A DNA stretch of 64,000 nucleotides from Acidobacteriota bacterium (lineage in GTDB: Bacteria > Acidobacteriota > Terriglobia > Terriglobales > SCQP01): contig DAIDIE010000040.1 in the NCBI GenBank assembly GCA_027459505.1, forward strand, positions 62,001-126,000. The letters run 5' to 3'. The notes under the pieces were generated by a model. That model worked only from the letters and a program-made list of their open reading frames with translations, searched no databases and had not been told where the DNA came from. How positions within the stretch are numbered: the first letter of the stretch is position 1; each line of letters starts with the position of its first letter. Shown piece after piece: positions 41,639-44,518 of this stretch. The position numbers and the translations under genes are program-made.

Positions 41639-42205
41639 TTATTTCCGCTTGCGCAGGCGCCAGGTCATGTTGCGCATGGCCATCTTCCAGGTCGCCAGAT
41701 CCTTCGCCACAAACTGCTTCTTCACCAGCCCCCCATGCTGAATGGCTGCCAGCATCTGCTCGGGCGGCACGCGCCGCATGATTCCTTCCTCGATCCGCAG
41801 CAGTTCCCGCAGCTCGCCGCCGGGAGCCGCGTCCACCAAAAGGGCCATTGGGGGTGCAATGCCAGTCTGGTCATTTGGTTTCAAGAGCTCCCAGGCATGG
41901 AGGAGTTCGCGGCTTTGGTCGCTGTATAGAGGGAATCGCAGTTGCAATTCACGGCTGATTTCGTTTAATGCCTCCGGGGGGTCAACGGAGATTCCGGCAA
42001 GTGCGATGCCCAGGTCGCGAAAGCGTTCCAGCAACCTGCTGTAGTCCGCCAACTGGCGAATACAGCTCGGTCACCAAACGCCACGGAAGAACAGCGTCAG
42101 GAGGCGGGTGCCGTTCACCAGTTCGCCAACTTGCACCCTGTGCCCTTCACCATTCACAACGGCGGCTGAACGCAGCTCTCTCGCCGGACTCAGCAGAGTG
42201 TTCAT
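41639..42205 (-). CDS. Redoxin/peroxiredoxin-like protein with in-frame TGA at the active site (selenoprotein candidate)
   Basis: Read through one TGA (42073-42071), this frame encodes 188 residues of the AhpC/TSA-redoxin fold. The N-terminal part ends LLTLFFRGVW, then TGA, then PSCIRQLADYSRLLERF, ISVDPPEALNEI and LQLRFPLYSD. Relatives have RGxWCPxC here, so TGA replaces exactly the first redox Cys, giving a U-x-x-C motif with Sec45 and Cys48. Coding is uninterrupted for 44 codons before and 143 after. A hairpin with bacterial SECIS features starts 4 bases after the TGA. It lies 32 bases downstream of a thioredoxin-domain gene on the same strand. Starts ATG 42205 and ATG 42211 are both possible; ribosome binding sites are weak. 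The alternatives are a nonsense mutation, or an N-truncated product from TTG 42052 that would lack the active site. Confidence 0.65.
42038..42073 (-). promoter_or_regulatory. Putative bacterial SECIS element following the TGA codon
   Basis: After UGA and CCGA the RNA pairs GCUGUA (42066-42061) with UACAGC (42043-42038). Inside, CGCC (42058-42055) pairs with GGCG (42050-42047), closing a loop AGUU. The loop is 16 bases from the UGA and carries G at its second position. Bacterial SECIS elements typically have a stem-loop whose apical loop lies about 16-37 bases after UGA and begins with a G-containing pair of bases. The fit is good; activity is inferred. Confidence 0.55.
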
Positions 42206-42237
42206 GGTCATATTGTGAGTGAGTCGGCGCTCAATTT

Positions 42238-43581
42238 CTAGCTCGCCTGCTGCAGCGCTTGCTGAATAGCGGCATTGAGTTGGGCCTTGTACAGCCCCTG
42301 GTCGAAGCCCGCCAGCCGGAAGGAGATGTTGCCCTTGCGGTTAAGCACAATCGTGGTTGGCAGTGAGTTGACGTTCCAGTAATCGGCAAGACCCTCATCC
42401 AGCCACGTGTCCGGCGTCCAATGGTGTGCGGCCACGAAGGGCGCCACGCGATTCTGGTCGGCGTCGGTGTTCACCGCGATAAACACCACGTTGGGATTGG
42501 AAGCGTATTGCTGGCGTAGCTGCTCGATATAGGGATGCTGTATTTGGCAGGGTCCGCACCAGGTGGCCCAAAAGTCCAGCACGATCACTTTGCCGCGATC
42601 GCTCTTGAGTTGGTGCGGCGCACCCTTCAGATCCTTCAGCGTAAAGTCGAAGGCGCTATGTGCCCTCTGCTCGCCCGGGTTGATCTCGGCTCTTTGCGCG
42701 GCATCGTGAGGCGCGACGACGTCGTTGAACTTCTGCAGGATCAGGTCGCCAAAACCTGTATCCGTTCCGTGGAGCTGTTTGTAGAGCGCCTCCGCCGTGG
42801 CAATTAAGCGAGCGCGCTCCGCGATTGTCGACCCCGGCAAGGCCAGAGCCAGGGCATAGGCGTCCACTGCTTTGGGGACATCTTGTTGTTTGGTGTAAAG
42901 CTCAGCCTCGTGTTGGGCCGCTTCCTCGGTGGGGGCCAGCACCAGCGATTCAGAGAGATATTTTTGTGCGCCGAAATTGTTCCCGGCTTTCTGATCGGCC
43001 GCTCCCAGAAAGAGATCGGCGAGGGCGCGCAACCGGTTCATGTCGATATTCCAGCGCGCGCTGCCAATTTCCTCTGGAACCGGCTCTTTGGCCTTCTGCT
43101 CCACAACCTGCCGCAATTCCGCCGCGTATTGCTGCGCTTGGTGGATGCTCGCGGCGTCGTTGTCCAGTAACAGCAGGTTCAGCACGCGAATACGCGCTTT
43201 GATGCTGGAGGGATCGAGCTTCTGCAGTGTTTCACTGTATTGAAGTACCAGCGCCTCGTCATTCAGCGCAGTGGCGTCCTTGATCATGATGGGGTAAATC
43301 TCGGCGGCCACGGGCGTATGGGGATGCGCCGCCATAAACGCTTGTAGTCCACGCAGCCGCGCGCCAGGCTCTCCTTCCGCCTTGCGCATGATGTCTTGCA
43401 GTTCCAGGGCCTGCTGCTGCAAGTCGTCGGTATTGGGAGCGGGGCGGCTCTTCAACCGGGGCGCAGCCTGGGGCGTAGGGGTGGGCGCCGGGCTTGAAGG
43501 AGTGGCGCGCTGCGCCATCAGGAAAACTGGAGAGGTCAAAAACAGAACAACTAGGAGACGGACAGTATTGCGAAGCAACAT
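42238..43581 (-). CDS. Exported TPR protein with C-terminal TlpA/ResA-type thioredoxin domain
   Basis: A 447-residue periplasmic protein. A signal peptide (LLVVLFLTSPVFLMAQ) is followed by a Pro/Ala linker, helical TPR-like repeats (about 50-290) and a thioredoxin domain with LDFWATWCGPCQIQHPY (WCGPC at 341-345) and the cis-Pro in NSLPTTIVL. TlpA/ResA proteins reduce disulfides or haem-protein cysteines outside the cytoplasm. It lies directly upstream of the candidate selenoprotein. ATG 43581 gives the best signal peptide. Confidence 0.85.
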   Translation of the reverse strand: MLLRNTVRLLVVLFLTSPVFLMAQRATPSSPAPTPTPQAAPRLKSRPAPNTDDLQQQALELQDIMRKAEGEPGARLRGLQAFMAAHPHTPVAAEIYPIMIKDATALNDEALVLQYSETLQKLDPSSIKARIRVLNLLLLDNDAASIHQAQQYAAELRQVVEQKAKEPVPEEIGSARWNIDMNRLRALADLFLGAADQKAGNNFGAQKYLSESLVLAPTEEAAQHEAELYTKQQDVPKAVDAYALALALPGSTIAERARLIATAEALYKQLHGTDTGFGDLILQKFNDVVAPHDAAQRAEINPGEQRAHSAFDFTLKDLKGAPHQLKSDRGKVIVLDFWATWCGPCQIQHPYIEQLRQQYASNPNVVFIAVNTDADQNRVAPFVAAHHWTPDTWLDEGLADYWNVNSLPTTIVLNRKGNISFRLAGFDQGLYKAQLNAAIQQALQQAS

Positions 43582-43627
43582 GCGTATACCGGAGATTCCC
43601 TGAAGATTCGACAAAAGTCGAATATGC

Positions 43628-44518
43628 CTACCGTTCAAAGAGCTCGAAGATGCGCTGGAAATCTTCCAGGCTGTAGTACTCAATGGTGATCGAGCCGCGA
43701 TTTTTTTTGTCTTTGATAACTACTTTGGTTCCCAAACGCCGGGCCAGCTGCTCTTCCGCCTCTCGGACATTCGGGTCGCGGGGCTTTTCCGGCTTAGGCG
43801 CGACGGCCGCGGGCGGCTGCAACGCCTGCGCCACCTTGTCTTCCACCTGGCGGACGCTCCACCCAAATTCGATGATCTGGGCGGCCATCTGGTTCTGTTT
43901 CTCCGGGTCGAGGGAAAGCAGAGCGCGGGCGTGTCCCATGCTGAGCCGGTTCTCTTCGACATGGGCCTGCACGTTGCTGGATAGCTTGAGCAGCCGCAGA
44001 AAATTGGCGACGGTGGCGCGGTCTTTACCGGTACGCTGCGCCACTTGTTCCTGCGTCAGTTGAAACCGGCTGGCAAGCTGTTGAAAGGCGCGCGCCTGCT
44101 CCATGGGGTTGAGGTCTTCGCGCTGCAGGTTCTCGATGATGGCCAATTCGAGTGCCTTCTCATCGCTGAAAGGGCGCACAATCGCGGGGATTTCTTTGAG
44201 TCCGGCGAGCTGAGCGGCGCGGAAGCGGCGCTCGCCCGCAATCAATTGGAATTTGCCCTGGTGGGGGCGGACCAGTACGGGTTGTAACACCCCCTGGGCG
44301 CGGATGCTCTGGGCAAGCTCCTCCAGCGCCGCGGGATCAAAGTGTGTGCGTGGCTGTTGCGGGTTGGCCTGGATTTCCGCCATCGTCAGCAGACGCGCCC
44401 CTTCCAGCTTGTCAGGATCGGCGGCGGGGACGGCAGCGGGAGCGGCAGCCGCTGGTGTTTTCAGGAGCGATTCAAGCCCGCGCCCCAGTGCTTTGCGCGG
44501 ATTTCCGGGAGTGTTCAC
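43628..44518 (-). CDS. parB: Chromosome partitioning protein ParB (Spo0J)
   Basis: A 296-residue centromere-binding CTPase. The N-terminus KALGRGLESLL is the ParA-interacting element. The ParB/Srx CTP-binding part has NPQQPRTHFDPAALEELAQSI and GERRFRAAQLAG, and the helix-turn-helix is LTQEQVAQRTGKDRATVANFLRLLKL. The C-terminus has the dimerisation helix. The start is GTG 44518 with GAGGT eight bases upstream, giving a 47-base overlap with parA. It would load on the parS sites at 45492-45614. Confidence 0.93.
   Translation of the reverse strand: MNTPGNPRKALGRGLESLLKTPAAAAPAAVPAADPDKLEGARLLTMAEIQANPQQPRTHFDPAALEELAQSIRAQGVLQPVLVRPHQGKFQLIAGERRFRAAQLAGLKEIPAIVRPFSDEKALELAIIENLQREDLNPMEQARAFQQLASRFQLTQEQVAQRTGKDRATVANFLRLLKLSSNVQAHVEENRLSMGHARALLSLDPEKQNQMAAQIIEFGWSVRQVEDKVAQALQPPAAVAPKPEKPRDPNVREAEEQLARRLGTKVVIKDKKNRGSITIEYYSLEDFQRIFELFER

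Follow-up and report, generated by a model that had tools for sequence, protein, structure and literature searches.

Does the in-frame TGA of a redoxin gene in this 64,000-nt stretch of acidobacterial DNA (the whole stretch analysed, hereafter the window) end the reading frame, or is it decoded as selenocysteine (Sec) under the direction of a hairpin that follows it immediately in the mRNA? We examined the gene, the hairpin, its relatives with TGA or with a Cys codon at the same position, and the Sec machinery of the genome.

A redoxin gene interrupted by TGA

The relevant features of the locus are listed below.

41639..42211, minus strand: AhpC/TSA (Prx-like) redoxin gene of about 190 aa, with TGA predicted to encode Sec (translation with TGA as U, PF00578, TGA homologues)
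42071..42073, minus strand: in-frame TGA, predicted Sec codon of the motif FFRGVW-U-PSC
42038..42066, minus strand: whole hairpin, consisting of the core, the lower stem GCUGUA (42061-42066)/UACAGC (42038-42043) and a bulged C at 42044
42045..42060, minus strand: putative SECIS core, with upper stem UUCGCC/GGCGGA and apical loop AGUU (42051-42054)
42238..43683, minus strand: TlpA/ResA-like thioredoxin-domain protein (CGPC), upstream, about 26 bp before the ATG (ORF and Pfam)

The reading frame ends at a stop codon at 41639-41641 and probably starts at ATG 42211 or 42205. Its translation matches PF00578 with 65.9 bits (cut-off 26), and the active site, W-U-P-S-C within FFRGVW-U-PSC, is of the U-x-x-C type. 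Mechanical ORF calling splits the gene at the TGA and begins a separate ORF at 42052, and the window protein lies on a long branch of the family tree. Both observations would suit a TGA that genuinely terminates translation or results from a sequencing error, with the downstream frame being a pseudogene remnant or having an internal start (TTG 42052). We regard this as very unlikely, given that 109 homologues have TGA at this point of the motif and 32 have TGC or TGT (among the matches listed), that residues invariant in 12 subfamily members flank the TGA on both sides, and that all Sec genes are present in the genome. Judged from these sequence comparisons, the gene that ORF calling cuts in two is very probably that of a full-length selenoprotein.

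Downstream of the redoxin gene lies an alpha/beta hydrolase gene, and parB and parA are found further upstream. The TlpA/ResA-like neighbour is a possible redox partner of the redoxin, encoded in one operon with it. A relative of this neighbour (53% identity over 360 aa) is also located upstream of one redoxin homologue (L013), which makes two of the 14 loci compared, counting the window's own; the compared flanks were at most ~1.5 kb and some were shorter, so the absence of such a neighbour elsewhere means little. A search for relatives in the genome contigs returned six loci, all distant (28-36% identity), and these were set aside.

The hairpin in the window gene

The first-pass annotation had proposed a SECIS-like hairpin right after the UGA, with a lower stem GCUGUA/UACAGC, an upper stem CGCC/GGCG and an AGUU loop that begins 16 bases past the UGA and carries a G in its first two positions. 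The hairpin is indeed predicted to be stable, with a minimum free energy (MFE) of -16.4 kcal/mol and a structure adopted by 92% of the ensemble; none of 200 dinucleotide shuffles was as stable (z = -4.46). The loop and its 16-nt spacing are as described, with the G at loop position 2. The proposed 4 bp of the upper stem are present but incomplete, as a U-A and a U.G pair extend this stem to 6 bp (UUCGCC 42060-42055 with GGCGGA 42050-42045). The lower stem likewise exists in the window sequence (6 bp, GCUGUA 42066-42061 with UACAGC 42043-42038), together with a bulged C at 42044 that had not been mentioned. In total, the hairpin has 12 bp and a one-base bulge, and the element runs on the minus strand, which the first-pass annotation had left unstated, from the TGA at 42073 down to the 3' stem end at 42038.

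We compared the hairpin with recodings of the same peptide by random synonymous codons, with codon usage taken from seven window ORFs. Only 0.6% of the recodings were as stable, and both stems were fully paired in 0.34% of them. Taken separately, the lower stem was fully paired in 3% of the recodings and the upper stem in 11.6%. The upper stem alone (-7.3 kcal/mol) is accordingly unexceptional in this gene under either of two earlier scores described below (P = 0.088 with the first, P = 0.12 with the second). The identical 12-pair geometry occurs three times over both strands of the window, the hairpin itself included. Since the upper stem is not rare under recoding, selection on it cannot be demonstrated from one gene, and the case for a SECIS element rests on the relatives.

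An Rfam scan of the 64-kb window gave no matches at the gathering score. RF00031 (SECIS_1) had no matches in the window's own genome and none in any of 14 control genomes, so its silence is uninformative on bacterial SECIS elements.

The hairpin follows the Sec codon among homologues

Homologues were collected from 298 genomes of the order (14 genomes of the family included) and 396 genomes of the phylum, 44 of which were common to both samples, and homologue counts were drawn from part of the matches listed. From 181 loci we removed 33 without the W[U/C]xxC motif, six duplicates and one with an N, which left 109 TGA and 32 Cys genes (among the matches listed). The final hairpin score required a loop of 3-9 nt located 16-37 nt from the UGA, a stem of at least 4 bp and a G as first or second loop nucleotide; G[G/U] was made obligatory, though the published model gives G or U after the G as usual. 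The stem-energy cut of -4.5 was chosen after earlier results had been seen.

With this post-hoc cut the hairpin was found in 104 of 109 TGA genes and in none of 32 Cys genes (among the matches listed), as the first-pass annotation had anticipated in expecting the stem only where TGA is present. Synonymous recoding predicts 17.3 of the 109 TGA genes and 1.8 of the 32 Cys genes. Individually, 75/109 TGA genes and 0/32 Cys genes reached P ≤ 0.05 against recoding (among the matches listed). Without any cut, the median stem energies were -7.9 for TGA and 0.0 for Cys genes (among the matches listed; rank test, P = 1.3e-16, a value that overstates the independent evidence because the rows are related).

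The two earlier scores also gave higher values for TGA genes. The first, with a loop offset of 13-33 nt, had a median z of 2.13 for 91 TGA genes, 55 of them with P ≤ 0.05, and of -0.09 for 24 Cys genes, none with P ≤ 0.05 (among the matches listed). The second, with a broad motif and a limit of -7.5 kcal/mol, was passed by 63/109 TGA and 2/35 Cys genes (among the matches listed); these counts include hits judged false by eye, namely L022 and L031 for TGA and L028, L052, L104 and L128 for Cys. The two Cys genes that passed (L096 and L118) have loops without G[G/U].

The contrast holds within smaller groups. In the RSADW[U/C]PYC subfamily the hairpin is present in 15/15 TGA genes (L094, L149, L160, L171, L174, L175, L177-L179, L182-L185, L196 and L203) versus 0/6 Cys genes (L100, L115, L119, L120, L127 and L137; among the matches listed). 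A well-supported clade (100/97) of nine rows has it in both of its Sec genes (L150 and L158, with 6- and 8-bp stems) and in none of its seven Cys genes. When independent Sec/Cys pairs were drawn on supported branches (five pairs), the hairpin followed the codon in 4.9 of 5 on average, with 0.0 opposite and 0.1 showing no difference (median P = 0.0625, the lowest attainable value). Every Cys row falls outside the window's own branch of the tree, and the window's subfamily therefore lacks a direct Cys contrast.

These data bear on the possibility that codon and amino-acid constraint alone produced the hairpin, in which case the palindrome would be encoded by chance in R-Q-L-A-E/D. The 11.6% of window-peptide recodings with a fully paired upper stem would allow such a coincidence in one gene, but it can hardly account for 104 TGA genes where 17.3 are expected and for none of 32 Cys genes (among the matches listed). 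Moreover, one Cys gene of the nine-row clade (L114) shares the peptide RQLAD with the window gene, yet its CGG in place of CGC disrupts one pair. Together with the paired substitutions described in the next section, this makes constraint alone a highly improbable explanation.

Five of the 109 TGA genes failed the hairpin cut (L082, L083, L085, L200 and L204; among the matches listed). By eye, the stem of L200 and L204 is broken by a C.A mismatch, and their sisters L194, L199, L201 and L205 are intact at the same place. The stem of L085 appears by eye as 3 bp plus 4 bp with a bulged C. Among the Cys genes, L091 seems by eye to retain part of the stem.

Compensatory changes in the upper stem

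Covariation had been suggested as a check on the hairpin. We analysed it in 13 gap-free sequences out of the 15 of the window's subfamily, omitting L016 and L044, which are near-copies of L015 and L043. Here the two stems behave differently. In the upper stem 98.7% of cells are paired, and two pairs have changed on both sides. Pair 17-26 changes from GC to AU in two of the 13 sequences, accompanied by a change from R-Q-L-A to H-Q-L-V (R to H, A to V), and pair 14-29 changes from UA to GC in one sequence, accompanied by a change from Leu/Glu to Arg/Ala. Hence, in these compensatory changes both encoded amino acids shift together while pairing is kept, which speaks against a hairpin due to constraint on the peptide.

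In the lower stem only 53.8% of cells are paired in the same 13 sequences. Four of its pairs cannot form in 7 to 9 of the 13 sequences, and of the 15 subfamily sequences the window's gene is the only one with all six; for comparison, slid versions of the whole structure are 33-55% paired. Two of the six lower-stem pairs have changed on both sides (four cells). Despite these, we rejected the lower stem as part of the conserved element, and covariation therefore bears out the hairpin in its upper part only.

Selenocysteine machinery

The window's genome (45 contigs, 96.85% complete) encodes a full set of Sec genes: selA (543 bits), selB (325 bits over its pieces), selD (351 bits) and a tRNA-Sec with anticodon TCA (UCA). 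Its selD (L206, G000:C24:313736-314662) likewise contains an in-frame TGA (locus position 1531) and a hairpin GGUCCAAC GGU GUUGGACC whose loop lies 20 nt past the UGA. This gene is a second selenoprotein gene of the genome and a positive control for the hairpin. The two are alike in that both genes contain TGA and a hairpin loop with an early G, which in selD begins the loop; they differ in stem sequence, in the 3-nt loop of selD and in the offset of 20 nt.

Among sampled genomes with a TGA homologue, selA (E ≤ 1e-60) was found in 83/87 (among the matches listed; first-score motif), against a background of 379 of the 650 distinct sampled genomes (order and phylum samples minus the 44 shared, by subtraction). 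The four genomes in which it was not found are all incomplete or fragmented assemblies: G012 (82% complete), G371 (75%), G424 (91%, ~650 contigs) and G500 (77%). Genomes with a Cys homologue carry selA in 16 of 24 cases (among the matches listed), so a lack of machinery does not by itself explain why the hairpin is absent from these homologues. The distribution of selA is patchy, with 136/298 genomes of the order and 252/396 of the phylum; genus g9, with many genomes in the order sample, contributes only G155 to the 136 carriers.

A hairpin with another RNA role (attenuation, mRNA stability or frameshifting) beside a UGA read otherwise, for example as Trp or Cys, is the least probable of the alternatives, since the non-TGA homologues examined hold Cys at this position (though the selecting motif allowed only Cys), since loop, spacing and G position fit the published SECIS limits, and since selA, selB, selD and tRNA-Sec are all present.

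Overall, we conclude that the hairpin is almost certainly a bacterial SECIS element in the gene of a Prx-like UxxC selenoprotein. Elements of this kind are already known, and the window gene is an additional member. In the proposed mechanism, the upper stem and AGUU loop of the mRNA would be read by SelB carrying Sec-tRNA(Sec), and the ribosome at the UGA would insert selenocysteine and not terminate. The resulting protein, with its U-x-x-C active site, would act as a Prx-like thiol:disulfide oxidoreductase or peroxidase, and the thioredoxin-like product of the gene immediately upstream would probably return it to the reduced state. Binding by SelB, insertion of Sec, the catalytic activity and the redox partner are what we infer from sequence. 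The 109 Sec-type and 32 Cys-type relatives (among the matches listed) amount to a natural experiment on how a coding sequence carries a SECIS element.

Comparison with known systems

The published bSECIS model has a loop of 3-9 nt, an upper stem of 4-16 bp, a spacing of 16-37 nt, an MFE of at most -7.5 kcal/mol and a G at loop position 1 or 2, after which G or U is usual (PMC13188914). The window element resembles this consensus in its 4-nt loop, 6-bp upper stem, G followed by U, 16-nt spacing and MFE of -16.4; its spacing of 16 nt equals the lower limit (PMC13188914). At -7.3 kcal/mol, the upper stem alone falls just short of the energy limit of -7.5, which the element reaches only when the lower stem is counted.

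Selenoproteins of the Prx-like UxxC type are known from the Sargasso Sea set (PMC1088965). A 2026 review lists a Prx-like thiol:disulfide oxidoreductase (PF00578) with UxxC or UxxU (PMC13188914), and the family also appears in the list of PMC5029168. Like these proteins, the window protein has a PF00578 domain and a thioredoxin-like UxxC that replaces the TxxU of Sec peroxiredoxin, and 32 CxxC homologues (among the matches listed) have Cys at the U position. Unlike them it is divergent, and its subfamily FYRGxWUPFCxRQLA is absent from those portions of the published descriptions with which it was compared. The best NCBIfam match of the window protein (residues 27-121) is the SelL-related redox protein NF040769, but its score of 29.1 bits lies below the cut-off of 120, and membership was rejected.

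According to a 2006 survey, some Cys genes that descend from Sec genes still contain remnants of SECIS-like structures (PMC1794560). In our set none of 32 Cys genes passes the cut (among the matches listed), with L091 the partial case seen by eye. Selenoproteins in Acidobacteriota have already been published: the deep-Sep paper credits Occallatibacter riparius with three known selenoprotein genes (PMC12013277). Within the accessible portions of the literature on selenoproteins of Acidobacteria/Acidobacteriota, we found no description of the SECIS element of the Prx-like family.

Hairpin register across the family

Among TGA genes with the hairpin, the loop offset falls into three classes: 16-17 nt (50 rows), 20-21 nt (36 rows) and 23-26 nt (18 rows; among the matches listed). 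On a family tree built from sequences with the SECIS-coding codons left out, these classes need at least nine changes, versus 45-50 in five shuffles. This suggests that SECIS elements may shift position within a gene as it evolves. Because the tree was built by a quick method without bootstraps and its deep branches are uncertain (long branches), we treat the register changes as a lead. We give roughly even chances to the reading that the hairpin has moved at least nine times among a few offsets (16-17, 20-21 and 23-26 nt), with stem sequences differing and the peptide adapting to the RNA. If so, simple inheritance would not account for the SECIS element: it would have been re-made repeatedly within coding sequence, and amino acids beside the active site would be dictated by the RNA. 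The redoxin family could serve for testing which variation a SECIS element tolerates in its stem, loop and offset.

L045-L047, L049-L052, L055-L057, L059 and others form a second subfamily, of longer proteins (FYRGYWU..CxxELR). By eye, the redoxin domain of most members is preceded by hydrophobic stretches. Its SECIS sequence differs, being CUCCG-AGUUR-CGGAG or CCUCG-AGUUR-CGAGG.
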